Below are positions 8,384 through 35,924 of a stretch of 64,000 bases of DNA, piece by piece (positions within the stretch are counted from its first letter, which is position 1; the number at the start of each line of letters is the position of its first letter). Origin of the DNA: Solirubrobacter phytolaccae. GTDB lineage: Bacteria > Actinomycetota > Thermoleophilia > Solirubrobacterales > Solirubrobacteraceae. A program made the position numbers and the translations under genes. Under the pieces are notes generated by a model that saw nothing but the letters and a program-made list of their open reading frames with translations, was not told where the DNA came from and ran no database searches. The stretch lies in contig NZ_JAPDDP010000005.1 of the NCBI RefSeq assembly GCF_027587195.1, positions 62,001-126,000 of the forward strand. Reading direction: 5' to 3'.

Positions 8384-9682
8384 ATGACCCACGCGCACCG
8401 GGCGTGGCTCCTCGCCGGAGCCATCGGCCTCGCGAGCGCCGCACCCTCCGCCGCCGCGGAGCCGGTCAACGGGCGCCTCGTGTACACCTCCTTCGAGTCC
8501 AGCGCCGATCCCCTCGCGGGTGACCTCTGGACGATGAACGCCGACGGGACGGACAAGCAGCAGGCGGTCTTCGACCCTGCCTACGATGCCCAGCCGGACT
8601 GGTCGCCGGACGGAACCCGGATCGCGTTCCGCAATCGCCGCAACAGCCGCTTCGAGTCCGCCATCCTCGACTTCCGCGTGCGCGACGCCGCAGGACGTCC
8701 CGTGGTCACCGACATCCCGCACGCCGGCGACGGCACGCAGACCACGCAGCCCAGTTGGTTCCCGAACGGGCAGGGCCTGCTCTACCGCCGCACCACCACC
8801 GCTCCGCCCACGCGCTCGGACGTCTGGGCGATGAACCTGGACGGCACGAACCGCCGGCCCGTCGTGGTGCTGCCCGAGGACCAGTTCTATCCGAGCTTCT
8901 CGCCCGACATGCGGACCGTGCTGTTCTCGACGGTGAAGGGCGCGGACGCGCGCAACATCCAGGCGATGGACGTCGCCACCGGTGCGATCACGACGCTGTT
9001 CGATCACAGCCCGCGGAGCTACGACTCCGCTCCCGCCTGGTCGCCGGACGGCCGCCAGATCGCCTTCGAAAGCGACCTCGACGGCGACCGGGAGATCTAC
9101 GTCATGAACGCCGACGGCTCGAACGTCCGCCAGCTCACCCACAACGGCAACTGGGAAGAAGGCCCCGCCTGGTCGCCCGACGGCACGCGCCTCGCGTTCA
9201 CGCGCGCGCTCAGCAACACGGATTACAACGTCTGGACGATGGCGCCCGATGGCACCGACCAGCGCCAGCTCACCACCTACGCGGGCCGCGACGAGTCACC
9301 CGACTGGGGTCGAAACCCCGGACCCGGGACCGTCGGCGGCACCGTTCCCGCGACGCTCGCGCTGAGCCTCGACGGCGCCGCGAGCTTCGGCACGTTCACG
9401 CCCGGCCTCGACCGCGAGTACACCGTCAGCGCCCGCGCCACGGTCACCTCGACGGCGGGCTCGGCGACGCTGAGCGTCTCCGACCCCGGCCATCTGGAGA
9501 ACGGGACCTACCACCTCCCGCAGGCGCTGCGCGTGGAGATGACGCCCGCGACCTGGACCGGGCCGGTGTCCAACACGACCGTCACGCTCACGTTCAGACA
9601 GGCCATCGCACGAACTGACGCGCTCCGGACCGGGACCTACACGAAGACGCTGACCTTCACGCTGACGACGACGGACCCGTAA
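8384..9682 (+). CDS. Exported TolB-like beta-propeller with shared C-terminal domain
   Basis: 432 residues with a signal peptide (ending SAAAEP). Several PD40/WD40-like repeats carry the DWSPDGTRIAF and WSPDGRQIAFES pattern typical of TolB propellers. After about residue 310 comes a roughly 120-residue beta-rich domain starting VGGTVPATLALSL and ending TKTLTFTLTTTDP. That domain also closes the proteins at 12996-15191 and 39959-42337. The propeller is probably a binding scaffold outside the membrane; the ligand is unknown. Confidence 0.88.
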   Translation: MTHAHRAWLLAGAIGLASAAPSAAAEPVNGRLVYTSFESSADPLAGDLWTMNADGTDKQQAVFDPAYDAQPDWSPDGTRIAFRNRRNSRFESAILDFRVRDAAGRPVVTDIPHAGDGTQTTQPSWFPNGQGLLYRRTTTAPPTRSDVWAMNLDGTNRRPVVVLPEDQFYPSFSPDMRTVLFSTVKGADARNIQAMDVATGAITTLFDHSPRSYDSAPAWSPDGRQIAFESDLDGDREIYVMNADGSNVRQLTHNGNWEEGPAWSPDGTRLAFTRALSNTDYNVWTMAPDGTDQRQLTTYAGRDESPDWGRNPGPGTVGGTVPATLALSLDGAASFGTFTPGLDREYTVSARATVTSTAGSATLSVSDPGHLENGTYHLPQALRVEMTPATWTGPVSNTTVTLTFRQAIARTDALRTGTYTKTLTFTLTTTDP

Positions 9683-9696
9683 CTATCTTGGAGGCC

Positions 9697-10272
9697 GTGC
9701 CGGCCGACCGAATGCGCGCCTCAGACGCGGAACGCGAGCAGACCGTCGGGTTCCTTCGCGACGCCGTGGGTGAGGGGCGCCTGGACATGGACGAGTTCAC
9801 CGAGCGCACGACCCAGGCGTACCTGGCCAAGACCCGCGGTGAGCTGCTCGTGCTGCTGGACGACATCCCGGCCGCCCAGCTCGCCGCTCCGCCGCCGCCC
9901 GCGCCGTCCCCGGACCGCGGGCTTCCACGGATCCCCGGACGCTTCGGGTTCAGCGCGCGTTGGGTCGCGCCGACCGACCGCCGGCGGGCCGCAACCGACC
10001 TGGAGGAGTTCGTCGCGCCGCTGATGCGGACGCACGGCTACGCGCTCGTGCACGGCGGCGAGGCGCTCAAGGTCTTCGCACGCGAGCGCCGACCGCTCTG
10101 GACCTACGTGGTCGCGGTCGTGTTCTTCCCGATCGGGTTGCTCGCGCTGCTGCACAAGGAGCGCGCGCAGATCGTGTTCGAGCTGCGGGAGCGCGGCGAG
10201 GAGACGCTGATCTCGGTGAGCGGCGATGCGCCGCTCGCGATCCGGCGCGGGCTCAGCGCGCTCGAGCGCTGA
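9697..10272 (+). CDS. DUF1707 domain membrane protein
   Basis: About 191 residues. The N-terminal DUF1707 segment is clear (MRASDAEREQTVGFLRDAV, GRLDMDEFTERT), followed by a Pro-rich linker, a soluble middle part and one membrane helix near 140-160. DUF1707 is a short SHOCT-like helical module common in actinobacterial membrane proteins; its role is unknown. GGAGG at 9690-9694 sits 2 nt before the GTG at 9697 and 17 nt before an ATG at 9712, so the start is uncertain. The 3' end overlaps the convergent idi gene by 20 bp. Confidence 0.8.
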   Translation: MPADRMRASDAEREQTVGFLRDAVGEGRLDMDEFTERTTQAYLAKTRGELLVLLDDIPAAQLAAPPPPAPSPDRGLPRIPGRFGFSARWVAPTDRRRAATDLEEFVAPLMRTHGYALVHGGEALKVFARERRPLWTYVVAVVFFPIGLLALLHKERAQIVFELRERGEETLISVSGDAPLAIRRGLSALER

Positions 10273-10771
10273 CGATCTCCCAGGCGGGCGGGAACCATGC
10301 CGTGAACTCGGTCTCGCGGGCGCGGGCGATCCACTCGTCCAGCTCGGCGACCGGGACGAAGCGCCACTCGACGACCTCGTCCGGGTCGGGCGACGGGTCG
10401 ACGGAGATCTCGCACACGAGCAGGTGGTCGAGCTCGTTCTCGACCAGGTCGGCGAGCTCGGCGCGGTAGCGGAGAATCCCGACCTCGCGCAGCTCGCCCG
10501 CTTCGATGCCGAGCTCCTCGCGGAAGCGGCGGGCGGCGGCGGCCTCGGTGGTCTCGCCCGGGCGGGGATGGCCGCAGGCGGAGTTCGTCCACAGGCCGGG
10601 GGAGTGGTACTTGCCGAGCGCGCGGCGCTGCAGCAGCAGCTCGCCCGCCGGGTTGAAGGCGAAGACCGAGAACGCGCGGTGCAGCTCACCGGTCTGGTGC
10701 ACGGCGAGCTTCTCGCCGACCCCCAGCTCGCGGTCGTCCTCGTCGATCAGCACCACGCTCTCCTCAGGCAC
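10253..10771 (-). CDS. idi: Isopentenyl-diphosphate delta-isomerase, type 1
   Basis: A 172-residue Nudix-fold enzyme that interconverts IPP and DMAPP, the C5 units of isoprenoids. Key features are the catalytic Cys in TNSACGHPR, the Nudix-like GETTEAAAARRFREELGI, and the catalytic Glu in VENELDHLL. The length fits the type 1 family. It stands alone here, well separated from the polyprenyl synthase at 33436, but it would feed the same precursor pool. Confidence 0.93.
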   Translation of the reverse strand: MPEESVVLIDEDDRELGVGEKLAVHQTGELHRAFSVFAFNPAGELLLQRRALGKYHSPGLWTNSACGHPRPGETTEAAAARRFREELGIEAGELREVGILRYRAELADLVENELDHLLVCEISVDPSPDPDEVVEWRFVPVAELDEWIARARETEFTAWFPPAWEIVSARAR

Positions 10772-10784
10772 GAGCGAGACCCTA

Positions 10785-10817
10785 GCCGAGGCCCGAGGCG
10801 AAACCCCGGGCCTCGGC
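10785..10817 (-). terminator. Hairpin terminator after the epoxide hydrolase gene
   Basis: A perfect 11-bp stem (GCCGAGGCCCG with its complement) around an 11-nt loop lies just past the stop of the epoxide hydrolase. There is no clear T tract. Part of its sequence recurs at the 12958-12985 terminator. Confidence 0.6.
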
Positions 10818-10825
10818 CGAATGTT

Positions 10826-11965
10826 CTACGGGCGAGCCGCGCGCCCGGCGTAGAACTCACGCACCGCGCGCACGAGCTCGTCCGGCACCTCCATCGCGGC
10901 GAAGTGGCCGCCGCGGGGGTGCTCGGTCCACGAGACGATGTTGGTGTTGTCGCGCTCGGCGAAGGGGCGGATCGTCTTGAAGTCGTCGGCGAACACGGCG
11001 ACGCCGATCGGGCCGTCGTTCACGCGCACGGGGACGTCCTTCTCGACGTGGTGCAGGAGCACGGCGCCGGCGGAGGTGTTGGTCAGCCACTGCAGGCTGA
11101 CCTGCAGCAGCACCTGCTCAGGGGTCATCAGGCTGGTGCCGTTGCCGAAGTTCTCGAAGAGCTCGTGGTAGGCAAGCAGCCCGATGGGGGAGTCGCTCAG
11201 CGCCGCGGCGATCGTGAGCGGGCGCTTGGCGTTCATGTCGGCATAGCCGTTGACCGTCTGGAACCAGCCGGCGAACTCGAGCGCCGCGTAGTCGTCGGGG
11301 CCCACGCCCTCGAACTCGGCGGGGTCGCCGGACGGGAACGAGAACAGCTGCAGCACGTGCGCGCCGAGGAACCCGTCCGGGTTGGAGATCGCGAGCTCGC
11401 GGGAGAGCATCGCGCCGCCGTCGGACCCGTGCGCGCCGTAGCGCTCGTACCCGAGGCCGCGCATGAGCCGGTCGAACGCCCGCGCCGTGCGTTCCAGCGT
11501 CCAGTCGGTGGACGACAGCGGCGTGCTGAAGCCCATCCCGGGCAGGCTCGGGATGACGAGGTGGAACGCGTCCTCGGCGCGGCCGCCGTGCGCGGTCGGG
11601 TCGCTGAGCGGGCCGATGACGTCGAGGAAGTCCGCGAACGAGCCGGGGTAGGTGTGGGTGAGCAGCAGCGGCGTCGCGTCCGCGTGCGGCGAGACGACGT
11701 GCAGGAAGTGGAAGGTCTGGCCGTCGATCTCCGTGCGGAACTGCGGGTGGGCGTTCATCCGCGCCTCGTGCGTGCGCCAGTCGAACTCGGTGCGCCAGCG
11801 CTCGACCAGCGGGCGCAGGTAGGAGACGGGCGTGCCCTGGGTCCAGCCGGCGCCTGGCCACTCGGCGGCGAAGCGGGTCCGGGCCAGGCGGGCCTGCAGG
11901 TCGTCCAGCGCGTCCTGCGGGATGTCGATGGTGAAGGGCTCGATCTCCAGCGCGGTGTTCGTCAT
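10826..11965 (-). CDS. Epoxide hydrolase, alpha/beta fold with N-terminal EHN domain
   Basis: 379 residues. The N-terminal epoxide-hydrolase segment ([20 protein letters not shown]) is followed by an alpha/beta hydrolase core. The nucleophile elbow is GSDGG (Asp near residue 180) and the catalytic His lies in GGHFAAME (near 352). The family opens epoxides to diols through an Asp-ester intermediate; the substrate cannot be told. It is divergent from a WYL-family regulator only 25 bp away, its likely controller. ATG at 11965 is chosen over an in-frame TTG at 11974. Confidence 0.88.
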
Positions 11966-22576: not shown

Positions 22577-23146
22577 GGCGAGCCGCTGGCCGTTCATCTT
22601 CTCGGCCGCGGGGGAGAGCAGGAACGCGATCGCGTCGGCGATGTGCGCCGCATCGGTGAACGTGGCGAACTTCGCGTCGGGCTTCGCCGCGCGCATCTCC
22701 GGCGTGACGATCGCGTTGACGGCGATCACGTTCGCGGTGATCTCGTCGGCGAGCGCGAACGTCCACGCCTCGGCGGCGGCCTTCGCGGCCGCGTAGGCCG
22801 CGTTGCTCCAGGTCGGCTCGAGCGCCTGCTTGGAGGACACGATCACGAAGCGCCCGTTGTTCGCCTTCAGCGGCTCCAGGAACGCGCGCGAGGCGTTCTG
22901 CACGGTCGTGAGCAGCTGCTTCTGCAGCCACTCGGTGTCCGCCGGGTCGACGCCGCCCTTCCAGCCGCCGACGAGGTGCACGAGCGCGGTGACGCCGGTC
23001 AGGGAGTCCGCCCACTGCTGGGTCTGCTGCGCGTCGAGCAGGTCGACCTCGCTGCTGCGGGGCGCCGAGACGGTCGCGCCGTCGCGCTCCAGGCGCGCGA
23101 TGACCGCTTGGCCGAGCGCGCCCCCGCCGCCGGTGATCGCGATCAC
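22565..23146 (-). CDS. Short-chain dehydrogenase-like protein
   Basis: A 193-residue, short SDR. The cofactor motif is ITGGGGALGQAV at the extreme N terminus. The active-site region reads IVSSKQALEP followed by YAAAKAAAEAW, so Ser, Tyr and Lys are in place. The start is a GTG that overlaps the stop of the DUF6421-like gene by 4 bp, so both products are made together. The substrate is unknown. Confidence 0.85.
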   Translation of the reverse strand: MIAITGGGGALGQAVIARLERDGATVSAPRSSEVDLLDAQQTQQWADSLTGVTALVHLVGGWKGGVDPADTEWLQKQLLTTVQNASRAFLEPLKANNGRFVIVSSKQALEPTWSNAAYAAAKAAAEAWTFALADEITANVIAVNAIVTPEMRAAKPDAKFATFTDAAHIADAIAFLLSPAAEKMNGQRLALHG

Positions 23147-25215
23147 GCGGCGGCTCCCGCCAGCTCGACCGTCTCGTCGAGCTTGGCCTTGAGCGAGATG
23201 TAGAACAGCGAGAGCGGGAACTCGTCGGGCTGGACGAGGTCGATGAAGCGGCGCGGGTCGCCCTGGTCGCTCAGCTCGCGGACGTCCTTGCGCCACGCGC
23301 TGTCGGCCGCCGGCTTGACGTAGGTGGAGACCAGGTCGTGCGCCGAGGCCCAGTACTGCGGCTTGGTCGAGTCGATCCCGTCGCGGTAGAGCGTCTCGAC
23401 CTGGGTGCGCAGGTTCGCGACGCCCTCGGCGATCCCGTCCCACTCGATCGTGAGCTCGTTGTTGGTCCAGTGCACCAGCTCGTGCTTGTGCAGGAAGGCG
23501 AACAGCAGCTGGCCGCCGAGCCCGTCGTAGTTGCGCACGCGCGGGCCGGTGATCGGGAAGCGGAACAGGCGGTCGAGCAGGATCGCGTGCTGGACGTAGC
23601 GCGCGAACGCGAAGCCCTCCTGCTCGAGCTTGACGGCCTCGACGAACGCGGTCAGGTCGCAGCGCAGCTCCTCCAGCGCGTACATCCAGTACGGCGCGCG
23701 CTGCCGGATCATGAACGGGTCGAACGGGAGGTCGCCGCGGCTGTGCGCGCGGTCGTGGATGAGGTCCCAGAGCACGAACGCCTGGCGCGACAGCTCCGGC
23801 GAAGCGAGCAGCGCGGCGGCGTCGGGGGCGAGGTTGAGGGACAGCACGTCCGCGGCCTTGGTGGCGACGGCGCGCAGGCGCGCGGCCTCGCGGTCGCAGA
23901 AGATCGCGCCGAAGTGGTTGGCGGGCTTGCCGGCGACGCTCACCGTCTCCGGGAACAGCACGGCGGTGTTGGACTCGTAGCCGGACGTGCGGTCCACGAA
24001 CGTGACCGGCACGAACTTCGGGTTCTGGAAGCGGGTCGCCTCCAGCTGCGCGAGCCACTCGGGCCACGGGACGCGGATGATCAGCGCCTCGAAGACCTTC
24101 TCGGACGGGCCGTTCTGCTTGTACATCGGGAACACGACGAGGTGCTCGATGCCGTCCTCGCGGTGCAGGTCCGGGCGGAACGCCTCGAGGCTGTTCGTGA
24201 AGTCGGGCTTCTCGAAGTCCCAGGCGTTGAGGTCGGCGATCACCGCGTCGAGGTAGTCGGCTTGGTGCGGGAAGTGCGGGCGCAGCACGTCGATCGCGGT
24301 GGTGATCGCCTCGATGTCGGCGTCGGCGCGCTTGTCGGCGTCGATCGAGCCGTCGGCGTTCTGGAGCGCGCGGAGCGCCTCGATCTCGCCCTTGAGCGCG
24401 GCCCACGCGGGGTCGGCCTTGGCCGCCGACGGCTGGATGTCCTCGGCGTGGTTGAAGGACGGGTTCGCGACCCAGTAGACGAGGTTGAGCCACAGGTCGG
24501 CGTGGTCGTACTCGCCGAGCGTGTCGTCGCCGAACAGGTCGGAGTCCGAGAGCACGACGACGCGGCCGGCGCCGTGCTCGGTGACGACGGCGAGCGGCGC
24601 GTGCGGCGCGGTGGCGGTCGTCGAGGCGCGCGCGATCACCTTCGCGCCGTTGGTGGTCGCGAGCGTGCCGGCGCGGTACAGGCGGATCTCGTTCACGCGC
24701 GCGAGCACGTCGGCGGACGAGCCGCGGCCGTTGGAGGTCAGCAGCGGGCGGATCCAGGTCGGCGTGCCGTCGGACTGCTCGTAGTCCTGCACCGTCGCGG
24801 TCTCGATCTGGATGCCGAAGGACGCCAGCAGCTCGTTGAGGTTGTTGCCGTAGCGGTCGTGGTCGCACTCGCCCAGCACGATCAGCCCGCCGCCGGCGTG
24901 CACGAACGCGCGGATCGCCTCGATCTCGTCGGCGCTCAGCTGCGGCGAGCCGACGCCCGTCGTCGCCTCCCAGCGCGGGTCCGACGGGTGTGCGAGCACG
25001 AGCACGTCCGCGTCGATCTGCGTCAGCAGGCCCTCCGTGTGCGCACGCACCGTGAAGTCGCGCTGCTCGAGCAACTTGGCCGCCTTCACGTACGAGACGT
25101 CCTCAGGATGCGCGGGCTGCATCCGCTGCGCGACCTCAGGCCGGATCGTCCAGGCCTGGCTGTGGGCTTCGTCGAAGAGCAGGGTCGCGGGCTTGTTCGG
25201 ATGCAGGAGAGCCAT
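23143..25215 (-). CDS. DUF6421-like protein with N-terminal GATase-like domain
   Basis: 690 residues. The first part, about 240 residues, is an alpha/beta domain like those in ThuA/GATase-type proteins (AFVHAGGGLIVLGECDHD, HGAGRVVVLSDSDLFG). The C-terminal 440 residues match my recollection of DUF6421 of streptomycetes. The stretch WDLIHDRAHSRGDLPFDPF followed by EELRCDLTAF has the look of a metal site (His/Asp/His and Glu), but this is inference. No activity is known. It is coupled to the SDR gene and divergent from an Lrp-type regulator. Confidence 0.7.
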   Translation of the reverse strand: MALLHPNKPATLLFDEAHSQAWTIRPEVAQRMQPAHPEDVSYVKAAKLLEQRDFTVRAHTEGLLTQIDADVLVLAHPSDPRWEATTGVGSPQLSADEIEAIRAFVHAGGGLIVLGECDHDRYGNNLNELLASFGIQIETATVQDYEQSDGTPTWIRPLLTSNGRGSSADVLARVNEIRLYRAGTLATTNGAKVIARASTTATAPHAPLAVVTEHGAGRVVVLSDSDLFGDDTLGEYDHADLWLNLVYWVANPSFNHAEDIQPSAAKADPAWAALKGEIEALRALQNADGSIDADKRADADIEAITTAIDVLRPHFPHQADYLDAVIADLNAWDFEKPDFTNSLEAFRPDLHREDGIEHLVVFPMYKQNGPSEKVFEALIIRVPWPEWLAQLEATRFQNPKFVPVTFVDRTSGYESNTAVLFPETVSVAGKPANHFGAIFCDREAARLRAVATKAADVLSLNLAPDAAALLASPELSRQAFVLWDLIHDRAHSRGDLPFDPFMIRQRAPYWMYALEELRCDLTAFVEAVKLEQEGFAFARYVQHAILLDRLFRFPITGPRVRNYDGLGGQLLFAFLHKHELVHWTNNELTIEWDGIAEGVANLRTQVETLYRDGIDSTKPQYWASAHDLVSTYVKPAADSAWRKDVRELSDQGDPRRFIDLVQPDEFPLSLFYISLKAKLDETVELAGAAA

Positions 25216-25771: not shown

Positions 25772-25813
25772 GTAACCCGTTTCACGCTTGACCGGTGGAG
25801 AAAGGGTTACCGT
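25772..25813 (+). promoter_or_regulatory. Inverted repeat and -10-like box ahead of the cyclase/isoprenoid operon
   Basis: GTAACCC (25772-25778) and GGGTTAC (25804-25810) form perfect 7-bp arms 25 bp apart. TACCGT (25808-25813) overlaps the right arm and could be the -10 box. TTGACC lies at 25788-25793, but its spacing to TACCGT (14 bp) is short. The repeat could be an operator; its partner is unknown. Confidence 0.35.
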
Positions 25814-25822: not shown

Positions 25823-27163
25823 TTGGCTCCCAAGCGCAAGAGCCCGCTGAACGAGCGTCTCGTCACGGCGATGCTCAGCGTGCAGTTCCACTCGCTCGGC
25901 CGTGAAGGGCAGATCGGGCGTCCGCCGACGCTCGTGTCGCCGGACCTCGCGCCCCTGCCACTCGACGAGGCGCTCGACATCGTCCGCGCGAAGGGCACCG
26001 AGGACTTCCAGCGCGAGGTCATGTGGACCGTGCTCCGCGGCTCTCCGCACCCCCCGTTCCGCGAGCCGTTCCGTGGCCGCCATCTGCGGTATCCGCCGCC
26101 CGTGCGCTTCTACTGCGAGACGCTCAAGTTCGACCTGGCCGTCTTCGACGAGCGGCGTAGCCAGTACCGCAGCGACGCCCGCCTGTTCGCCGCGGCGATC
26201 GTCAGCTACGCCCTCGAGCGACTGGACGTGTTCGCGGCGCTGCAGGCGGTGATCGTCAAGCGCGAGGAGGGGTCGCTGTTCGCGAGCGAGCTCCTCCAGG
26301 AGGCGCTCGGCGGGCCCGTCGAGGACTTCCTCGGCTTTCTCCATGACATGGAGAAGGTCCCGCGCCCCGGCGAAGACACGCTCACGCAGCAAAAGCGGTG
26401 CGCCCGCTCCCTGCGCAACTTCGAGGAGGAAGTCGGCGTGAGCCTGGAGACGTACGTGGGCGAGTTCGCCGACACGGTGGCCTTCATGGAGACCTGGAAC
26501 GCGCGCGAGAAGCCGGGTCGGCTGGAGCTCGGGGCGCAGGCGCCGCGGGTGTATCCGGCGTTCACCGTCGCGCTGCAGGACCCGAAGACGCTGACCACGT
26601 CGGTCACGTCGACCTCGCTGGTCAGAGCCGACGATCTGCAGCCGCTCCTGGTGGCGATGGACCCGCGCAGCTGGGACGGCCTGAGCACCTGGTTCAGGGA
26701 GGTCAAGTACGTCAAGAAGCGGAGCAAAGACCGCGGGACACCGCACAAGCCCAAGCAGCTGCGCGAGGTCGTCGACATCCACTCGCGCGGGGGCCAGACC
26801 GACATGGGCTTCTTCGAGAACCTGCTCTGGGTCGAGTTCAAGGTCGGCAGGGACAAAGAGGGCCGCGCGGACAAGGGCTGGGCGACCCTGGACTTCTCGC
26901 TCGCGGAGAGCGTCCGCAGCCGGCTGCTGTGGGACGAGCGGCCGGGCGGGCTGCTGGTCAACTCCGGCTGGACGAAGCTGCGGTGCATCAGCCCGGGGCT
27001 CTGGCGGCTCACGGCACGCAAGGTGCTGCGGTTCTCCGACCGAACCCCGCAGTCCGGAGGCAACACCCCGTTCGACTTCGGCCAGACGCTCAACCTGCTT
27101 GCCCCATCGGTGTTGAGCAGCTGGCTCGAGAGCGACATCTACAGCACTGGGAGGCAGGCATGA
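25823..27163 (+). CDS. Unknown soluble protein, first gene of the operon
   Basis: 446 residues from a TTG start. There is no signal peptide and no membrane helix. The N-terminal half is mostly helical and charged (EDFQREVMWTVLRG, LYVP-free; FLGFLHDMEKVPRPGED). The C-terminal half is mixed (GWATLDFSLAESVRSRLLWD, LRCISPGLWRLTARKVLRF). I recognise no family. The stop overlaps the next start (ATGA), so it is translated together with the phasin-like protein. As the first gene of a seven-gene operon it is likely central to the pathway, but no function can be assigned. Confidence 0.75.
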   Translation: MAPKRKSPLNERLVTAMLSVQFHSLGREGQIGRPPTLVSPDLAPLPLDEALDIVRAKGTEDFQREVMWTVLRGSPHPPFREPFRGRHLRYPPPVRFYCETLKFDLAVFDERRSQYRSDARLFAAAIVSYALERLDVFAALQAVIVKREEGSLFASELLQEALGGPVEDFLGFLHDMEKVPRPGEDTLTQQKRCARSLRNFEEEVGVSLETYVGEFADTVAFMETWNAREKPGRLELGAQAPRVYPAFTVALQDPKTLTTSVTSTSLVRADDLQPLLVAMDPRSWDGLSTWFREVKYVKKRSKDRGTPHKPKQLREVVDIHSRGGQTDMGFFENLLWVEFKVGRDKEGRADKGWATLDFSLAESVRSRLLWDERPGGLLVNSGWTKLRCISPGLWRLTARKVLRFSDRTPQSGGNTPFDFGQTLNLLAPSVLSSWLESDIYSTGRQA

Positions 27164-27813
27164 GCAGCGACCCGCCGCGCTCCGGCACCGACGGCTGGGA
27201 CCGCATCGGCGAGTTCATGAGCCGCATGAACGAGACCGGCGCCGTGATGGCGCAACGCAACCTCGACGCCTGGACCGAGATCTCCGCGGACCTGCGCGAC
27301 CCGAAGTTCACCGCCGACGCGTGGGCGCGCAGCAACGCGAAGCTGTTCGGCACGTTGCTCGACAACGCGCAGGAGATGGCCACGCTGTTGGGGACCTCAC
27401 CGGGCAACCAGCCCGCCGCGAACGTCATCCCGACGGTGTTCCTCCTCTTCGTGATCGAGATCCCCGACGACGACGGAGCTGATGACGCGTCGAAGCGCAA
27501 GCTGGTCCGCGACCCGTTTCCCGACGTGCCGCCGATCGACGCGCCGCGGTGGATCTCCCGGTGCCCGCCGCGCGCGTCCCTGTGGCTGGCGGGCGGCACG
27601 GGCGACGATGATGCCGTCGCCGTGCGCAAGTCGATCACCATCGCCCGCGACAAGAAGAACCTGCGCCGGTACAACGTCACCTACAAGTCGCGCAAGGCCA
27701 CGAAGCAACTGCCCCTCGGCAGCTACAGCGGGGTGAGCTATCTCGAGCTGGGCACGACCTACGTGCCGCTCGCCGACGTGCGCGTCGTCGTCCGCCGCGC
27801 GGACACCGACTGA
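27160..27813 (+). CDS. Phasin-like helical protein with beta-rich C terminus (unknown)
   Basis: 217 residues. The first 75 are amphipathic helices rich in Ala, Trp and Phe (WDRIGEFMSRMNETGAVMA, WARSNAKLFGTLLDNAQEMA) that resemble the helical part of phasins, the coat proteins of storage granules. The rest is beta-rich and basic (RRYNVTYKSRKATKQLPLG). The phasin likeness is by eye only. It overlaps the gene before it and lies 12 bp ahead of the cyclase gene. Confidence 0.7.
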   Translation: MSSDPPRSGTDGWDRIGEFMSRMNETGAVMAQRNLDAWTEISADLRDPKFTADAWARSNAKLFGTLLDNAQEMATLLGTSPGNQPAANVIPTVFLLFVIEIPDDDGADDASKRKLVRDPFPDVPPIDAPRWISRCPPRASLWLAGGTGDDDAVAVRKSITIARDKKNLRRYNVTYKSRKATKQLPLGSYSGVSYLELGTTYVPLADVRVVVRRADTD

Positions 27814-27825
27814 CGGCGCGGGCGC

Positions 27826-30800
27826 ATGGCGAGCGAGCACTTCGCGAAGCAGATCGAGAGCCTCTGGGGCGACGCTCGTCACGCCCACGACGACGGTGAC
27901 GGTGAGCGGGCGCGGGCGCTCGCGTCCGCGGTCCTGGCGCTCGATCCGGAGCACGCCGAGGCGCGCCGGCTGCTGGACGGGTCCGCTCGCCGCTGCCAGA
28001 TGACGTTGATGTTCTGCGACCTGGTCGGGTCCACGGCGCTCAGCCAGACGCTCGATCCCGAGGACATGACCGAGGTGCTGCGCGGCTACCGGGCGATCTG
28101 CGCGCAGGCCGTCCAGCGGTTCGGCGGCTTCATCGAGGACCGCCAGGGGGACGGGCTGCTGGTGCGGTTCGGGTTCCCGAGCGTGCACGAGGACGACGCG
28201 CGCCGGGGCGTGCTCGGGGGCTTGGAGATCGTCCGCGGCGTGCGCGCGCAGCGGGAGCACGGCGTCGAGCTCCACGTGCGCGTCGCGGTCCATACGGGCA
28301 TGGTCGTGATTGACGACGGCGGAGTCGTCGGTGCCGCGCCCAACGAGGCCTCGCGCCTGCAGACGTTCGCGGAGCCCGACACGGTGCTGATCAGCGAGGC
28401 CACCCACGCCCTGGTCGACGGCTACTTCGACGTCGAGGCCCGCGGGGTGGCGACGCTCCGGGACGTGCTCGCGCCGATGCGCATCTACGCGGTCGCGGGG
28501 GAGCGTGCCGACCGCCGGTTCGACGCCACCGGTGACCTGACGCCGTTCACCGGCCGTGAGCGGGAGCGTGACGTGCTCGTCGGCGCTTGGCGTGACGCGG
28601 CCGAGGACGACGCCTCGCCGTGCGTGCTCGTCAGCGGCGCCGCGGGCATCGGGAAGTCGCGGACGATCATGGAGGCGGCGCGCGTCGCCGGGACGGATGT
28701 GCGCCTGTGCCCGTGCTCGGGCTATCACCAGACCACCAGCCTGCACGCGTTCCGTGACGTGCTCGAGCAGGCGTGCGGCATCGCGGAGCACGACGACACC
28801 GGCCGGCGCCTCGCCAAGCTCCGGTCGGCCGTCGACACGGCCGACGGCGATCTGCCGCTGCTGGCGGCCGCGCTCTCGATCCCGCTCGAGGCGACCGTCC
28901 CGCAGTCCGAGGTCGACCCGAGCCTGCTGCGGACCAAGGCGATCGGCGCGGCGGCCGACCTGGTGCGCAGCGCCGCCGCGGAGGCGCCCGTGTTCCTGGT
29001 CGTCGAGGATCTGCACTGGGCGGACGAGTCGACCTTGGAGCTGATCGGCCTGCTGCTGGCGGCGCCGCACCCGGGCCTGCTGATCGTGCTGAGCGGGCGC
29101 GAGCGCTTCCAGCCGCCCTGGGACGAGGCGCCCCTGCAGCGGGTCGAGCTCGTCCCGCTGTCGACCGGCGAGTCGCAGGCGATGGCCGTGCGGCTGGCCG
29201 GAGGGGCCGGGCTCGGCGCCGACCGGCTGCGCGCGCTGATCGCCCGCAGCGACGGCATCCCGCTCTACCTGGAGGAGCTCGTCCGCAGCTCCGACGTGAG
29301 CGATCCGCGCGGGCTGTACCCGGCGATCCGCGAGCCGGACCCACGCATCCCGTCCGCGCTGCGCGACTCGCTGCTCGCCCGGCTCGCGTCACCCGGCGTG
29401 AACCTGGAGCTCGCGCAGATCGCGGCCACGATCGGTCGCGACGTCGACCGCGAGCTGCTCCAGCGCGTATCGGAGCTTGCGGACTCGACGTTCCACACCC
29501 GGCTCGCGAACCTCATGGCCGCCGGGCTCGTCGACGGGTCGGGCGAGCACATGATCCGCTTCCGCCACGAGCTGATCCGCGTGGTCGCGTACGAGACCCA
29601 GCGGCGGGCGGAGGCGCGGGATCGCCACAGCCGGATCGCCGACCTGCTCGGCACGACCGCGCGCCCCGCCTCCCGTGACGCCGGCGAAGCCGCCTTCCAC
29701 CTCGAGAAGGCCCACCGCTTCGACGAGGCGATCCTGGCCTACGTCGACGCCGCGCGCGCCGGGCAGGCGTTGGGCACGCACAAGGAGGCGACGACGGACC
29801 TGACCCACGCGCTCGGGCTGATCGAGCGGCTTCCGGCGGGGCGCGAGCGCCTCGTGACCGAGCTCACCGTGCGCGGGCTGCGCAGCTTCAGCGCCGTGAT
29901 GGCGCGCGGGTTCTCCGCCGAGGAGGCGATGGAGGACCACGCGCGCTGCGTCGAGCTGTGCACCGAGCTCGGAGGCGGGCCCGAGCAGCTGTCGAGCCTG
30001 ATGCTCGGGTGGGCCTACTACTGCTCGCAGGGCGACCTCGTCGAAGCCGATCGCGTGTCGGACACGATCGAGCAGGCGATCGCCGCGGCGGGCATCGCGC
30101 TGCCCGCGCGCGAGGTCTTCAAGGGCACCACGCGCTCCTTCCAGGGCCACCTGCAGGAGGCGCGCGAGTTGATGGAAGGCGGGCTCGCGCACGCCTGGTC
30201 ATCACCGCCGGGCCGGACGCCGGAGCACTGGCCGATGCCGAACGACCTGGCCGTGTCGGTCAGCGGCCATCTCGCCGTCACGCGGTGGATCATGGGCGAC
30301 CCGCACGGCGCCCGGCTGATCGGCGAGCAGGGCCTGCGCCGCGCCGCGACGCTGCCGTTCCCGTTCGGGCCGTTCAGCAAGGCCTACCTCGACGGCTGCC
30401 TCGCGCTCGTGCAGCGGCTGGCGGGCGAGCACGCCGTGTCGCTGCGCCACGGCCAGGAGATGCTCGCGACCGGCGAGCGCCACGGCTTCGCGCTGTGGTC
30501 GCTGGTCGGGTGGATGCACGTGTCCTTCGACCGTGTGCACCTGGGCGAGCTCGAGGCGCTCGACGCGGCCGTCGCGGCGGTCGAGCAGTGGCGGATCGCG
30601 CGCGCGTCGGAGGTGTGGACGCCGTACTTCCTGACCGCGCTCGCGGCGGCGCAGCTCCACGCGGGCCGCGCGGGCGAGGCGCGCGTGACGCTCGACGAGG
30701 CGCTGGCGGTCGCGGCCGCGACCGGGTCGGAGTTCTTCGCGTCCGAGACGCTCCGGCTGCGCGGCACGCTGCGCTGGGAGAACGGTGACCCGGGCGGGCT

Positions 30801-30909
30801 GGAGGACCTGCGCCACGCGGTCGAGAAGGCGCGCCGGCAACGCGCGGCCGCGTTGCAGCTGCGAGCGACGGTCGCCCTGGAGGCCGCGAACGAGTTCGCG
30901 GCGCCATGA
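27826..30909 (+). CDS. Class III nucleotide cyclase fused to AAA ATPase and TPR-like repeats
   Basis: 1027 residues. A short helical start is followed by a class III cyclase domain (about 55-205) with both metal Asp residues (MFCDLVGST and RQGDGLLVRFG) and the transition-state Asn/Arg pair (NEASRL). A STAND-like AAA ATPase follows, with Walker A GAAGIGKSRT (near 268) and Walker B VFLVVEDLHWADE (near 388). About 400 residues of helical TPR-like repeats end it. The intact residues predict cNMP synthesis gated by protein contacts; the Lys/Asp pair that sets ATP or GTP choice is not obvious. It overlaps the FAD gene by 4 bp, and a Crp-type regulator ends the same operon. Confidence 0.92.
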   Translation: MASEHFAKQIESLWGDARHAHDDGDGERARALASAVLALDPEHAEARRLLDGSARRCQMTLMFCDLVGSTALSQTLDPEDMTEVLRGYRAICAQAVQRFGGFIEDRQGDGLLVRFGFPSVHEDDARRGVLGGLEIVRGVRAQREHGVELHVRVAVHTGMVVIDDGGVVGAAPNEASRLQTFAEPDTVLISEATHALVDGYFDVEARGVATLRDVLAPMRIYAVAGERADRRFDATGDLTPFTGRERERDVLVGAWRDAAEDDASPCVLVSGAAGIGKSRTIMEAARVAGTDVRLCPCSGYHQTTSLHAFRDVLEQACGIAEHDDTGRRLAKLRSAVDTADGDLPLLAAALSIPLEATVPQSEVDPSLLRTKAIGAAADLVRSAAAEAPVFLVVEDLHWADESTLELIGLLLAAPHPGLLIVLSGRERFQPPWDEAPLQRVELVPLSTGESQAMAVRLAGGAGLGADRLRALIARSDGIPLYLEELVRSSDVSDPRGLYPAIREPDPRIPSALRDSLLARLASPGVNLELAQIAATIGRDVDRELLQRVSELADSTFHTRLANLMAAGLVDGSGEHMIRFRHELIRVVAYETQRRAEARDRHSRIADLLGTTARPASRDAGEAAFHLEKAHRFDEAILAYVDAARAGQALGTHKEATTDLTHALGLIERLPAGRERLVTELTVRGLRSFSAVMARGFSAEEAMEDHARCVELCTELGGGPEQLSSLMLGWAYYCSQGDLVEADRVSDTIEQAIAAAGIALPAREVFKGTTRSFQGHLQEARELMEGGLAHAWSSPPGRTPEHWPMPNDLAVSVSGHLAVTRWIMGDPHGARLIGEQGLRRAATLPFPFGPFSKAYLDGCLALVQRLAGEHAVSLRHGQEMLATGERHGFALWSLVGWMHVSFDRVHLGELEALDAAVAAVEQWRIARASEVWTPYFLTALAAAQLHAGRAGEARVTLDEALAVAAATGSEFFASETLRLRGTLRWENGDPGGLEDLRHAVEKARRQRAAALQLRATVALEAANEFAAP

Positions 30910-32870
30910 CCGCGTCCCGGCCGCGCAGGGTGGCGATCCTGGGCGGCGGGATCGCCGGGCTCACGGCGGCGTGGGAGCTCACCCGGCCCGAGCTGGGCGG
31001 CCGCTTCCAGGTCACGGTCTACGAGCGCGACTGGCGACTGGGCGGCAAGGGCGCCAGCAGCCGTGGCGTGCACGGCCGGATCGAGGAGCACGGGCTGCAC
31101 GTCTGGCTCGGCTACTACGACAACGCGTTCCGGCTGCTGCGCGAGGTCTACGCGGAGCTCGACCGCGAGCGCACCGACCCGGGCTGCCCGATCGCCGGCT
31201 GGCGCGACGCGTTCATCGCCTCGAGTGAGGTCGGCGCGGCCGATCGCACGCCCGAGGGCTGGTCGCACTGGGTCGCGAGCTTCACCGGCAACGCGCACGA
31301 GCCGGGGGTGGAGGGCGGGGCGACCGGACCGCTGGCGGTGGCGACGTTCGTCGAGCGCGGGCTGCGGCTGCTCGCGGACTTCGCCGCGTCCGTGCGCGCG
31401 GAGCCGTCGCCGGTGGCGGCGGGCGTCGTGCTCAGCGCCTCCCCGCACCCACCCCGGCAGGCGGCGCCCGACGACTTCGCGAGCGTCCTCCGCCAGGCCG
31501 AGATCGCGACGTTGATCGGCGCCGTGCAGTCGCTGCGGCTGCTGCGCGCCGGTGTCCCGGCCGACAGCGCGCTGGGCGCCCGCCTGCTCGAGTTCCTCGA
31601 CCGCACGCGGGTCGAGCTGCTGGACCGGATCCGGCGCGACGACGACGCCCGCCGCACGTGGCAGCTCGCCGACCTGCTGCTCGCCTGCCTCTCGGGCATC
31701 GTCTCCGGCGGCCTGCTCGGCAACCCGGCGGCGTTCGCGGCGATCGACCGCTGGGACTTCCGCGACTGGCTCGCCCGCCACGGAGCGGACCGCGAGACGC
31801 TCGACTCGCCGCTCGTGCGCGTGATGTACGACTTCGTGTTCGCCTACGAGGGCGGCGATCCCGCGCGGCCGCGGTTCTCCGCCGGCCTGGGCGTGTTCCT
31901 GTCCTACAAGCTGTTCTTCGAGTTCCGCGGCGCGATCTTCTGGAAGATGCGCGCCGGCATGGGCGACGTCGTGATGGCGCCGCTCTACCAGGCGCTGCGG
32001 GCGCGCGGGGTGCGGTTCGCGTTCGCGCATCGCGTGCAGCGCCTGCACGTGGACCGTGCGCGGCGGCGGATCGCGGCGGTGTCGCTGGTGCGGCACGCGG
32101 CCGGGCTCGACCTCGAGCCGCTCGTGCACGTGCGCGGGCTGCCGTGCTTTCCGTCGCGCCCGCTGCCGCGTCCGCGCGAGTCGGCGCGGCTCGTCGCCGG
32201 GGACGACTACGACGTCGTCGTGCTGGCGGCGGCGCTCGGGGCGCTGCCCGAGATCTGCGCGGAGCTGATCGAGGACTCGCCCGACTGGCAGGCGATGACG
32301 ATGCTGCTCGGGACGGTCGCGACGCGGTCGCTGCAGGTGTGGACGCGCGCGGGGGAGGAGGAGCTCGGCTGGCGGCACCCGGGGGCGACGGTCGCCGGCT
32401 ACGCGGTCCCGTTCGAGGTCTACGCGTCGATGACGCACACGCTCGAGACCGAGGACTGGCCGGACGCGGACCGGCCGCGGTCGGTGGGGTACTTCTGCGG
32501 CGTCATCGATGACCGGCTCGGCAAGCAGTCGGCGCGCAGGCGCGCGCACGACGACGCCGACGCCTTCCTGCGCGGACCGGTCGGGCGCTACTGGCCCGGC
32601 TATCGGGAGCCGGACCTGGTGTCGCGGTACACGCGCGTGAACGTGGAGCCGACCGAGCGCTACGTGCAGTCGTTGCCGGGCACGGCGCGCTGGCGGCTGA
32701 GCGCCGACACGTCGGGCTACGAGAACCTCGTCCTCGCCGGCGACTGGATCGACAACGGGCACAACGCGGGCTGCGTGGAAGCCGCGGTGCTGTCCGGGCT
32801 GGAGGCGGCCAACACGGTGCGCGGGCGCGGGCTGATGGAGGGGGTGCTCGGCTCGTGGAGCCGCGCGTGA
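30906..32870 (+). CDS. FAD-dependent oxidoreductase, phytoene-desaturase/amine-oxidase type
   Basis: 654 residues. The N-terminal dinucleotide motif ILGGGIAGLTAAWEL is followed by ERDWRLGGKGASSRG and the His-rich EEHGLHVWLGYYDN typical of this superfamily. The C-terminal FAD motif is YENLVLAGDWIDNGHNAGCVEAA. Members desaturate or dehydrogenate isoprenoids, amines or porphyrins. The polyprenyl synthase two genes downstream makes an isoprenoid substrate the best guess, but the sequence alone does not prove it. Overlaps on both sides show strict co-translation. Confidence 0.88.
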   Translation: MTASRPRRVAILGGGIAGLTAAWELTRPELGGRFQVTVYERDWRLGGKGASSRGVHGRIEEHGLHVWLGYYDNAFRLLREVYAELDRERTDPGCPIAGWRDAFIASSEVGAADRTPEGWSHWVASFTGNAHEPGVEGGATGPLAVATFVERGLRLLADFAASVRAEPSPVAAGVVLSASPHPPRQAAPDDFASVLRQAEIATLIGAVQSLRLLRAGVPADSALGARLLEFLDRTRVELLDRIRRDDDARRTWQLADLLLACLSGIVSGGLLGNPAAFAAIDRWDFRDWLARHGADRETLDSPLVRVMYDFVFAYEGGDPARPRFSAGLGVFLSYKLFFEFRGAIFWKMRAGMGDVVMAPLYQALRARGVRFAFAHRVQRLHVDRARRRIAAVSLVRHAAGLDLEPLVHVRGLPCFPSRPLPRPRESARLVAGDDYDVVVLAAALGALPEICAELIEDSPDWQAMTMLLGTVATRSLQVWTRAGEEELGWRHPGATVAGYAVPFEVYASMTHTLETEDWPDADRPRSVGYFCGVIDDRLGKQSARRRAHDDADAFLRGPVGRYWPGYREPDLVSRYTRVNVEPTERYVQSLPGTARWRLSADTSGYENLVLAGDWIDNGHNAGCVEAAVLSGLEAANTVRGRGLMEGVLGSWSRA

Positions 32871-33439
32871 ACGACGACGGGCTCCGCGCCGCCGAGGCGG
32901 TCTTCGACCGCATCCTCGACGGGCTGGAGGAGCGCTCGTCCTCGCCGCCGCTCTCGGACAGCGGGCAGGATCTCCCACCGGCCAGCCGCGTGCGGCTCAC
33001 GCAGGTGCGGTCAGCGGCGGCGCGTACGCTCGACCTCTACGCGGACCTCTTCCAGCGCGCATTCGAGACCTACGCGGACCTCGCGCAGGCCGCGCTGCAC
33101 CCCGGCACCGACCCGTCGCCGGACGTGCCGCTGGCGCTCCTCGGGCGCGCGGGCGAGGAGGCCCAGACGACCGTGTGGCTGCACAACGTCACCGCGGCGC
33201 GCGTGGACGGCGTCGAGCTGTTCATGACGGACCTGAACGCGGCGTCCGGCGCGCGGATCAGCGCCGCCTTCGCGTCCTTCTCGCCGGAGACGGTCGAGCT
33301 CGAGCCGAGTGCGAGCACGGGGTCGATCCTGCGCGTGCAGATCCCGCTGGGCGCGGCGCCGGGCCGGTACCACGGGCACGTGCTCTCGCCTGCCCTGCCG
33401 GCGAGCGCGCTCGCCGTGTGCCTGGTGGTCGCGCCGTGA
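32867..33439 (+). CDS. Phasin-like/beta-sandwich protein (unknown)
   Basis: 190 residues from GTG at 32867, which overlaps the FAD gene stop; an in-frame GTG at 32855 is an alternative. The N-terminal half is helical (RTLDLYADLFQRAFETYADL resembles phasin helices). The C-terminal half looks like an Ig-type beta-sandwich (VWLHNVTAARVDGVELFMTD, GSILRVQIPLGAAPGRYHG). There are no catalytic residues and no signal peptide. It is the second phasin-like protein in this operon. It overlaps the polyprenyl synthase start by 4 bp. Confidence 0.75.
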   Translation: MNDDGLRAAEAVFDRILDGLEERSSSPPLSDSGQDLPPASRVRLTQVRSAAARTLDLYADLFQRAFETYADLAQAALHPGTDPSPDVPLALLGRAGEEAQTTVWLHNVTAARVDGVELFMTDLNAASGARISAAFASFSPETVELEPSASTGSILRVQIPLGAAPGRYHGHVLSPALPASALAVCLVVAP

Positions 33440-34464
33440 GCGCGACGCTGACCACCGTCGAGGAGACGCTCGCGGGCTACGCGCGGCTGATCGGCGAGGA
33501 GGTCGAGCGGCGGCTCGCGCGCGAGGACTCGCCGTACCTCGCCTCGCTCGTGCGCGAGTACCCGCGGCGCGGCGGCAAGGGCATGCGCCCGGGGCTGTTG
33601 ATCGCGACCTGCCGGGCGTTCGGCGGGCCGACGCGGGAGGCGCTCGGGGCGGCGGTCTCGCTGGAGCTGCTGCACAACGCGTTCCTGATCCACGACGACT
33701 TCCAGGACGCGAGCCGGCGCCGGCGGGGTCTGCCGACACTGCACGAGCTGCACGGCGCGCCGCTCGCGATCAACGCGGGCGACGCGCTGGCGACGTTCGC
33801 GCTCGAGCCGCTCCGCGACACGAGTGTGCTCGGCGGCCGGCTCGCGCGGCGAGTGCTCGACGAGGTGCTGGCGATGATCGTCCAGACCACGGAGGGGCAG
33901 GCGCTCGAGCTGGGCTGGCGGCGCGACAACGTCGTCGCGCTGGCGCCGGCGGACTACCTGGAGCTCGTCTCGAAGAAGACGTGTTGCTACAGCACGGTCG
34001 CGCCGCTGCGGCTCGGGGCGCTGATCGGCTCGCGGGCGACGGTACCGCTCCGGTCGCTGGCGCGGTTCGGGTTCCACCTCGGCGCCGCGTTCCAGGTCCG
34101 CGACGACCTGCTGAGCGTGATGGGGTCGGGCGCCGTGCACGGCAAGGACGCGCTCGGCGACATCCGCGAGGGCAAGCGGACGCTGATGCTGCTGCACCTG
34201 CTGGGGGCGGTCGATGCGTCGCGGCGCGCGTGGCTGGTCGAGTTCCTGGGGGAGCCGGAGGAGGCGCGGAGCGATGCCGACGTCGCGCTCGTGCGCGAGC
34301 TGATGGAGCGCCACGGCAGCCTCGAGTTCGCGCGCGCGTACGCCGATCGGCTGGCGGTCGCGGCCGACGCGGCGTTCGAGGACGCGTTCGCGGGCGTGCC
34401 GCGCTCCGAGCACGTCGAGTTCATCCACGCGCTCATCCCGTACATGCTGGAGCGCACGGCATGA
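33436..34464 (+). CDS. Polyprenyl diphosphate synthase (trans-isoprenyl type)
   Basis: 342 residues. The synthase motifs are in order: RRGGKGMRPGLL (diphosphate binding), HDDFQD (first Asp-rich motif), FQVRDDLLS (second motif, last Asp replaced by Ser, as in many actinobacterial prenyl synthases), and HGKDALGDIREGKRTLML. It would condense IPP onto an allylic primer to give a C15-C40 chain; chain length cannot be set from sequence. GTG start in a 4-bp overlap with the gene before, ATGA overlap with the Crp gene after. Confidence 0.92.
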   Translation: MSATLTTVEETLAGYARLIGEEVERRLAREDSPYLASLVREYPRRGGKGMRPGLLIATCRAFGGPTREALGAAVSLELLHNAFLIHDDFQDASRRRRGLPTLHELHGAPLAINAGDALATFALEPLRDTSVLGGRLARRVLDEVLAMIVQTTEGQALELGWRRDNVVALAPADYLELVSKKTCCYSTVAPLRLGALIGSRATVPLRSLARFGFHLGAAFQVRDDLLSVMGSGAVHGKDALGDIREGKRTLMLLHLLGAVDASRRAWLVEFLGEPEEARSDADVALVRELMERHGSLEFARAYADRLAVAADAAFEDAFAGVPRSEHVEFIHALIPYMLERTA

Positions 34465-35123
34465 CGGCCGACTTCTGGGCGGGGCTGGAGCCGGCGGCCC
34501 GCGAGGCGCTGCGCAAGCGCGGGCAGTCGTGCACATACGCGCGCGGGCGGGAGCTGCTTCACGAGGGGCAGGTGCCCGATCGCGTGCTCCTGCTGCGCTC
34601 CGGGCTCGTGAAGGTCAGCCGGGTCGTGCTCGGCGGGCGTGAGGTCGTGCTCGCCTACCGCGGGCCGGGGGAGCTGGTCGGGGAGCAGTCGGCGCTGGAC
34701 GGTGAGCCGCGCTCCGCCACGGTCGCGGCGGTCGAGGCGGTCGACGCGTTCGTGTTCACGCACTCGGCGTTCCGTGGCTTCCTGCGCGAGCATCCGGAAG
34801 CGGCGCTGGTGCTGCTCGCGCTGATGAGCCAGCGGCTGCGTGAGGCCGACAGCCGCCGCGCCGAGTTCTCGACCCTGTCGACGATGGGTCGCGTCGCCTC
34901 GCGCCTCGCCGAGCTGTGCGACCGCTTCGGCGACGAGCACGACGGCCGCATCCGGATCTCGCTCCCGATCACCCAGGACGAGCTGGCGGGCTCCACCGGC
35001 GCGTCGATCGAGTCGGTCGGCCGGGCCCTACAGACCATGCGCTCGCTCAAATACATCGAGACCAAGCGCCGCGAGATCCAGGTGCTCGACCGCGAGGCGC
35101 TCGATGCCTTGCGCAACGCCTGA
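34461..35123 (+). CDS. Crp/Fnr-family transcription regulator
   Basis: 220 residues. The cyclic-nucleotide domain has the phosphate-binding cassette GELVGEQSALDGEPRSATV with the Glu and Arg-Ser that contact cAMP in Crp. A central helix is followed by a winged helix (ITQDELAGSTGASIESVGRA). The intact cassette predicts real cNMP binding rather than an Fnr-type sensor; there is no Cys cluster. As last gene of an operon that also carries a class III cyclase, it probably reads the signal that the cyclase writes. Confidence 0.92.
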   Translation: MTADFWAGLEPAAREALRKRGQSCTYARGRELLHEGQVPDRVLLLRSGLVKVSRVVLGGREVVLAYRGPGELVGEQSALDGEPRSATVAAVEAVDAFVFTHSAFRGFLREHPEAALVLLALMSQRLREADSRRAEFSTLSTMGRVASRLAELCDRFGDEHDGRIRISLPITQDELAGSTGASIESVGRALQTMRSLKYIETKRREIQVLDREALDALRNA

Positions 35124-35160: not shown

Positions 35161-35176
35161 CCCGTCAAATGACGGG
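35161..35176 (+). terminator. Hairpin after the cyclase/isoprenoid operon
   Basis: CCCGTC-AAAT-GACGGG, 38 bp past the Crp stop, with a second small hairpin at 35185-35198. There is no T tract. The 170 bp up to the sigma-factor gene also hold AGACGC/GCGTCT arms at 35208-35228, perhaps part of its control region. Confidence 0.45.
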
Positions 35177-35294: not shown

Positions 35295-35924
35295 ATGCTC
35301 CACACCCACCATCAGAACCGCGAATACGTCGCCGCCCTCGACGCCGAGCGGCAGCGCCGCTCGACCGCCGACGGCCGCGCGCTCGAGCGCATGATCGCCG
35401 CCGCCGCCAGGGGCGACCAGTCGGCCTGGTCGGCGCTCGTCAGCCGCTTCAGCGGCAGGATCGCCCGCGTCGCCCGCGGCTACGGCCTGAACCCCTACCA
35501 GGCCGACGATGTCGCCCAGGAGACCTGGCTGCGTCTGTACCGCGGGCTGGAGCGGGTCCGTGACCCCCAGGCGCTCGGCGCCTGGGTGGACACGACCGCG
35601 CGGCGCGAGAGCCTGCGGGCCCTCAAGCGGCGCGGGCGCGAGGACCTCACGGGCGAGGACCTGTTCGTCGACGTCGTCGCCTACGACGACCCGGACGAGG
35701 CGCTCCTCGCGGAGCGTCGCGTCGCGCTCGCGGCCGCCCTGGCGCGGCTTCCGGAGCGCCAGCAGCGGCTGATGGAGTCGCTGCTCGCCGACACCGAGCC
35801 CAGCTACGCGGACGTGTCCGCGGAGCTCGGGTTGCCGGTCGGCAGCATCGGCCCCACCCGCGGCCGCTGCGTCGAACGGCTGCGCCGCATCCTTGCGCCG
35901 GAGCTCGCCGACCAACCTCGCTGA
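35295..35924 (+). CDS. Sigma-70 family (ECF-type) RNA polymerase sigma factor
   Basis: 209 residues with sigma region 2 (SALVSRFSGRIARVARGYGL, then ADDVAQETWLRLYRGL) and region 4 (LPERQQRLMESLLAD, SYADVSAELGLPVGSIGPTR). No anti-sigma factor lies beside it, which suggests a subgroup controlled in another way, or a distant partner. Region 2 and 4 motifs are good, so the role in transcription is firm while its regulon is unknown. Confidence 0.9.
   Translation: MLHTHHQNREYVAALDAERQRRSTADGRALERMIAAAARGDQSAWSALVSRFSGRIARVARGYGLNPYQADDVAQETWLRLYRGLERVRDPQALGAWVDTTARRESLRALKRRGREDLTGEDLFVDVVAYDDPDEALLAERRVALAAALARLPERQQRLMESLLADTEPSYADVSAELGLPVGSIGPTRGRCVERLRRILAPELADQPR

Follow-up and report, generated by a model that had tools for sequence, protein, structure and literature searches.

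In mycobacteria, cyclase-ATPase proteins such as Rv0386 combine a nucleotide cyclase with a STAND ATPase and a repeat region. A link between such signaling and isoprenoid synthesis is known mainly from family 2B encapsulin operons. In these operons, whose cargo is a polyprenyl transferase or a terpene cyclase, a terpenoid enzyme is coupled with a cyclic-nucleotide-binding domain (PMC8346489). We analyzed a 64-kb stretch of DNA from Solirubrobacter phytolaccae, here called the window (positions 62001 to 126000 of contig C125 of genome G000, which has 7.74 Mb in 169 contigs). It contains a seven-gene operon, g1 to g7, in which isoprenoid genes accompany a cyclase-STAND protein. We read this operon as the actinobacterial form of a conserved module that makes and handles an isoprenoid lipid under STAND-cyclase control, with a probability of about 0.6. 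Its parts are of known kinds, but the libraries used contain neither the combination nor the g5 and g1 families. We found no description of the gene set in Pfam, NCBIfam, or the full text of 5.39 million open-access papers (subscription papers and preprints lay outside the search).

A compact operon that recurs across phyla

The seven genes occupy positions 25823 to 35123 of the window, all on the + strand. Five of the six junctions are 4-bp overlaps, which read ATGA at 27160, 30906, and 34461 and GTGA at 32867 and 33436. The sole non-overlapping junction is a 12-bp gap between g2 and g3 (27814 to 27825). The open reading frames and junctions confirm the tight packing described in an initial annotation of this DNA. 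Pfam and NCBIfam bore out its identification of a class III cyclase-STAND fusion (g3), a flavin adenine dinucleotide (FAD) oxidoreductase (g4), a polyprenyl synthase (g6), and a Crp-type protein (g7). There was no Pfam or NCBIfam family match for g1, g2, or g5.

Relatives of the module were found by similarity to g4. A collection of 84,980 genomes yielded at least 541 relatives, and the best 80 were taken with flanks of up to 10 kb. Genes were called and families were built in Python, and co-occurrence was counted in the 51 loci whose g4 relative was flanked on both sides by 6 kb or more. Alongside the FAD gene, the g5, synthase, and cyclase-STAND genes each recurred in 48 of these 51 well-flanked loci (94%). 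The polyprenyl synthases of this 7.7-Mb genome number 3 and its class III cyclases 8; therefore, only about 1 to 2% would be expected by chance per ~22 kb (about 1% for the synthase). The initial annotation had proposed looking for all seven genes in the same order elsewhere. Co-occurrence held for the four genes above, but the g1-like family was present in 26/51 loci and Crp in 5/51.

The usual order is FAD, g5, synthase, in one direction and with small gaps, in Actinomycetota, Pseudomonadota, Myxococcota, Acidobacteriota, and others. The mycobacterial loci have two divergent arms, one with g5 followed by the synthase and the other with f3, f12/f20, the cyclase, and the FAD gene. In Pseudomonadota, Myxococcota, and Acidobacteriota, the extra genes encode tandem acetoacetate decarboxylase (ADC)-like proteins (PF06314), a saccharopine-dehydrogenase-like protein, and an epimerase closest to HpnA. 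A distant locus in Qingshengfaniella (L009) retains the FAD, cyclase, and Crp genes consecutively, and at other distant FAD homologues a cyclase/ATPase protein or an ADC gene adjoins the FAD gene. At the distant FAD loci L010, L011, L059, L076, and L092, a separate family of 1400 to 1900 aa, annotated as AAA ATPase or cyclase, replaces the g3-type regulator.

Close to home g4 is rare; a search of its class (199 genomes) gave 2 carriers and one of its phylum (296 genomes) gave 4, with its own genome counted. A reverse profile search of 296 Actinomycetota genomes found the g1 family and strong g5 matches exactly in the three genomes with full-length g4 (at least 49% identity). Because those three genomes also feed the profiles, the absence elsewhere is the informative part of this search. 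There were no g5 matches at an E value of 1e-5 in 248 other genomes of Pseudomonadota, the phylum of Granulosicoccus, and the distribution of the module is therefore patchy. A plasmid search with g5 likewise gave zero matches. We are nearly certain that g1 to g7 belong to a real and widely recurring module. The initial annotation had called it self-contained. As a unit it stands, on the co-occurrence and on the synthase clade and g5-synthase fusion described below, but the proposed Crp loop is not general.

Probable isoprenoid enzymes and small proteins

The g6 product (33436 to 34464, + strand) is an E-type polyprenyl diphosphate synthase. It matched PF00348 at 179 bits and has both Asp-rich motifs, DDFQD and FQVRDDLLS, with Ser replacing the third Asp of the second motif. 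It also carries HNAFLIHDDFQD, and its best match in the PDB is the Thermus geranylgeranyl diphosphate synthase 1wmw. The module synthases usually have HNA[FLM]L[VI]HDD ahead of the first motif, and their second motif ends in Asn where the window protein has Ser. A tree set the module synthases against 19 further polyprenyl synthases, drawn from eight genomes that for the most part bear the module as well. In it, the module synthases formed one side of a branch with support of 99/98 that was present in all 200 bootstrap trees. FAD and synthase distances correlate across loci (r = 0.86, or 0.66 without the mycobacterial loci; both values include shared host descent). At locus L014, g5 and the synthase are fused in one open frame; L032 is very probably the same contig. 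We rejected an apparent FAD-g5 fusion at L055 because the join crosses undetermined bases of an assembly gap.

The g4 product (30906 to 32870, + strand) is an FAD oxidoreductase of the phytoene desaturase/HpnE superfamily, placed by Pfam in the amine-oxidase superfamily. It is the hallmark of the module and has the motifs WRLGGKGAS and RIEEHGLH. The best curated NCBIfam model was HpnE (TIGR03467), at 81.0 bits against a cut-off of 283, and at an E value of 1e-5 no solved structure was related to the family. The FAD protein of L009 (8001 to 10907 of that locus) is lengthened to 968 aa, with a C terminus that is ADC-like by eye, and that of L086 is lengthened to 1129 aa. This suggests that L009 and apparently L086 encode FAD-ADC fusions, which would connect the ADC proteins, as accessories, with the FAD step; these loci lie outside the window.

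The model of the g5 product (32867 to 33439, + strand; families f2 and f6 are this same family) has helices at residues 3 to 24 and 38 to 77 and a PapD/MSP/ASH-like β-sandwich at residues 89 to 189. The predicted local distance difference test (pLDDT) score of the sandwich domain is above 90. Its best fold matches were sandwich domains of GH123 enzymes, HYDIN, VAP-A, and pilus chaperones, at E values of 1e-7 to 1e-3 and with TM-scores to the query below 0.5. The g2 gene (27160 to 27813, + strand) encodes an unnamed protein that is helical and has a C-terminal motif resembling that of g5. It stands before the cyclase gene, in the position of f12/f20; its link to these families is weak, with only weak profile similarity to f20. 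The initial annotation had described phasin-like helices in two proteins. We dropped this identity for g2 and g5, since neither matched a curated phasin family in Pfam or NCBIfam, and g5 combines its two helices with the β-sandwich.

The first gene, g1 (25823 to 27163, + strand), encodes an unnamed protein with a helical N terminus and a C-terminal domain, at about residues 245 to 410, that is predicted to have a START/Bet v1-like (SRPBCC) lipid-binding fold. START and aromatase/cyclase structures matched this domain with Z scores of 9 to 10.5 over about 130 to 160 residues (Foldseek/VIA-align), and other families may also be compatible with the fold search. The model has pLDDT scores of about 70 to 92 over much of the domain and a mean of 55 overall, with a poorly modeled N-terminal half. 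A profile comparison with the f3 family (480 aa), which has the equivalent position in mycobacterial modules, gave an E value of 1.1e-4 and a probability of 56%. On this modest match and the agreement in position, g1 is probably a distant relative of f3. The START-like g1 and the sandwich proteins would fit the handling or packaging of a hydrophobic product.

One further plausible g5 match in the reverse search, in genome G414, led to locus L137 (G414:C3:102000-121900), a different cluster that looks like a sister type of the module. Here, at 3950 to 10838, a module-type synthase gene overlaps a g5-like helix-plus-sandwich gene, with no FAD gene or cyclase. L137 also encodes further small sandwich proteins and a methyltransferase. 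One of its proteins, which had no Pfam match, contains what we take to be a CrtC/AttH-like motif. Thus, g5 is a marker for finding further clusters of this kind.

Signaling genes and flanking DNA

The g3 gene (27826 to 30909, + strand) encodes a class III nucleotide cyclase domain (PF00211, 42.7 bits; cut-off, 21.9), an AAA_16/STAND ATPase (PF13191, 71.5 bits), and a TPR-like C terminus. The key cyclase residues are D/D/D/G/N/R. Both metal-binding Asp residues and the transition-state Asn and Arg that define a class III cyclase are therefore intact, as first annotated, but both ATP-reading residues are absent. Among 58 aligned cyclase domains, the metal Asp pair and the transition-state Asn/Arg are retained in about 50, which argues for catalysis. 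The ATP-reading Lys is present in none of the 58.

A Lys/Asp pair is the base-reading rule of adenylyl cyclases, and Glu in place of Lys marks guanylyl cyclases (PMC4215837). Cyclases without the canonical pair can act on GTP (PMC4215837, PMC5995499). The pair in g3 is Asp/Gly. This is not the adenylyl pair, and it departs from the guanylyl pattern (Glu for Lys and a variable small residue for Asp) in having Asp rather than Glu beside its Gly. The nearest solved structure to the g3 cyclase domain is the guanylyl cyclase Cya2 (2w01), which has Glu/Gly at these positions and is converted into an adenylyl cyclase by E488K (PMC5995499). The Asp/Gly pair and the likeness to Cya2 make cyclic GMP (cGMP) possible in the window, but the relatives vary and the sequence alone does not fix the nucleotide. 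We infer that cGMP would be at least as likely a product of the window cyclase as cyclic AMP (cAMP).

The last gene, g7 (34461 to 35123, + strand), encodes a Crp/Fnr-family regulator. Both its cyclic-nucleotide-binding domain (PF00027, 70.0 bits) and its helix-turn-helix domain (HTH_Crp_2, 60.6 bits) scored above the cut-offs. The phosphate-binding cassette (GE...PRSA; GEQSALDGEPRSA) is intact, in agreement with the initial annotation. A Crp gene directly adjoins the module in the window and in L009, L014, and L044, and the loading of an operon's own Crp by a cyclic nucleotide is not general across the module. In the window, a loop from the g3 nucleotide to g7 may operate, but we hold this to be somewhat doubtful. 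Since the canonical ATP-reading residues are missing and some relatives are catalytically depleted, the earlier description of the operon as wired by cyclic nucleotides is plausible but unproven. We also considered anti-phage defense. The PADLOC matches of g3 and g7 to Pycsar parts reflect shared cyclase and cyclic-nucleotide-binding domains, and there is no effector, so this candidate was rejected.

Just upstream of g1 is a 39-bp inverted repeat, GTAACCCGTT-N19-AAAGGGTTAC (25772 to 25810), the single such place in the whole 7.7-Mb genome and a candidate operator. An AsnC/Lrp-type regulator gene terminates about 100 bp upstream of the operon. An extracytoplasmic function (ECF) sigma factor gene (35295 to 35924, + strand), a possible accessory regulator, begins about 170 bp downstream. 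This sigma factor and one next to the L014 module (L014 3331 to 3975) share 43% identity, and both have GSIGPTR near the C terminus. A sigma factor was present in 3 of the 51 well-flanked loci. Crp and the ECF sigma factor were rejected as core parts of the module because these frequencies (5/51 and 3/51) are too low. Between the Crp and sigma factor genes, at 35161 to 35176, is a 16-bp perfect palindrome, CCCGTCAAATGACGGG, for which relaxed matches occur at about chance level. Farther upstream, 23143 to 25215 (− strand) encodes a 690-aa protein joining DUF4350 and DUF6421, both of unknown function.

Proposed pathway, alternatives, and known systems

We suggest the following scheme. The g6 synthase, given its family, Asp motifs, and clade, would make a linear polyprenyl diphosphate dedicated to this pathway. 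The g4 flavoenzyme, which is related to hydroxysqualene dehydroxylase and phytoene desaturase, would then oxidize or reduce the chain. From its predicted fold and the one g5-synthase fusion, g5, and probably g2 too, may hold the synthase and the flavoenzyme together or coat the hydrophobic product. The START-like pocket predicted in g1 could carry or sense this product. In g3, a ligand or partner at the ATPase/TPR part would switch on the cyclase domain, and the cyclic nucleotide would tune operon expression, here via the adjacent g7; the Crp step would be a local variant. The operon is probably an unrecognized lipid pathway under its own signaling control. More tentatively, the module may form an undescribed and widespread isoprenoid-lipid organelle or complex, with synthase and flavoenzyme assembled by helix-plus-sandwich proteins, a START-type carrier, and STAND-cyclase feedback, possibly through cGMP or another non-cAMP nucleotide.

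Several observations weigh against this scheme. The cyclase domains of several relatives are without metal or transition-state residues. Thr/Ser or Thr/Asn residues of the Crp C-helix contact adenine, but g7 has Ala-Asp aligned to the Thr-Asn of Rv3676. Crp at 5/51 loci is not clearly above expectation for so common a family. More distant FAD homologues, such as those of Azospirillum and Catenovulum and those on plasmids, are without the synthase and g5, and choosing loci by g4 similarity under-represents distant variants. Phytoene or squalene synthase and terpene cyclase are absent from the best 25 of 78 recurrent neighbor families.

The module could be real even if g3 worked chiefly as a switch or scaffold of the STAND ATPase kind, with the cyclase not its main output and no cyclic-nucleotide link to Crp. 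We regard this as possible. The absence of the ATP-reading Lys from all 58 aligned domains, the catalytically depleted relatives, the replacement of g3 in distant versions by 1700- to 1900-aa proteins of another cyclase/ATPase family, and the lack of Crp enrichment at module loci all favor it. However, the catalytic residues are kept in most of the aligned domains, and cyclases lacking the canonical pair can use GTP. It is unlikely that the operon belongs to a carotenoid, hopanoid, or squalene branch in which g4 is simply an orthologue of HpnE or CrtI and supplies a known pathway. HpnE is indeed the best curated model for g4, and the accessory epimerase is closest to HpnA, but both scores are far under the cut-offs (199 bits against 368 for HpnA). 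No solved structure is related to the FAD family at the E value above. Squalene/phytoene synthase is missing from the Pfam matches of those window genes that were tested, as it is from the best recurrent neighbors.

A shell-less or degenerate relative of the family 2B encapsulin operons, with the cyclic-nucleotide-binding domain moved to Crp, is very improbable. The top NCBIfam match of the synthase is the encapsulin cargo polyprenyl transferase (NF041169), and g7 weakly matches the cyclic-nucleotide-binding part of the shell, but again far under the cut-offs (185.9 bits against 450 for the synthase; 20 bits for g7). No HK97 shell with an internal cyclic-nucleotide-binding domain scored above the NF041163 cut-off in this genome. 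We rejected the relationship on this absence and on the separate synthase clade. G371, the genome with the g5-synthase fusion, has two true 2B shell genes on a separate contig near a different synthase that lies outside the module clade (C51 4027 to 10604; C129); it holds two separate terpenoid systems. Lastly, unrelated neighbors might simply be packed together, since overlapping genes are common in high-GC actinobacterial genomes and the window has about 71% GC. The recurrence of the combination across phyla, at 94% of well-flanked loci, refutes this.

The module points to an isoprenoid pathway tied to a STAND-cyclase, for which there has been no name and no family model of the hallmark small proteins, although it is found again and again in environmental mycobacteria, myxobacteria, marine alphaproteobacteria, and acidobacteria. 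Because the core is small (FAD, g5, and synthase), expression and lipidomics offer a direct route to the product.

The small proteins and g1 resemble phasins, START lipid-transfer proteins, and MSP/PapD proteins in small helical proteins, a predicted START-like pocket, and a predicted MSP/PapD-like sandwich, which suggests lipid handling; the likeness is one of fold or general shape, with no sequence family match. HpnE and phytoene desaturase share with g4 the flavin-binding fold and the isoprenoid setting and are its closest curated models, but g4 differs in its low scores, its linear polyprenyl synthase partner, and its own two motifs. The TOMM kinase/cyclase fusions (TIGR03903) have the same cyclase, STAND ATPase, and repeat architecture as g3. 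However, g3 scored 343.5 bits against 705.75, matched only from profile position 270, has no kinase domain, and accompanies isoprenoid genes rather than thiazole/oxazole peptide genes. Like Synechocystis Cya2 (2w01; PMC5995499), g3, compared by sequence, replaces the base-reading Lys with an acidic residue and the base-reading Asp with Gly. Its acidic residue is Asp rather than Glu, and it is a soluble STAND fusion, whereas Cya2 is a CHASE2 membrane receptor. Compared with the family 2B encapsulin operons, the module is without an HK97 shell, places the cyclic-nucleotide-binding domain on a transcription regulator, encodes a cyclase, and uses another synthase clade; its FAD, g5, and START-like proteins are not mentioned for those operons in the part of PMC8346489 considered. 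Both systems couple a terpenoid enzyme with a cyclic-nucleotide-binding domain in one operon and draw on one polyprenyl synthase superfamily, and both are consistent with the idea of a sequestered isoprenoid pathway.

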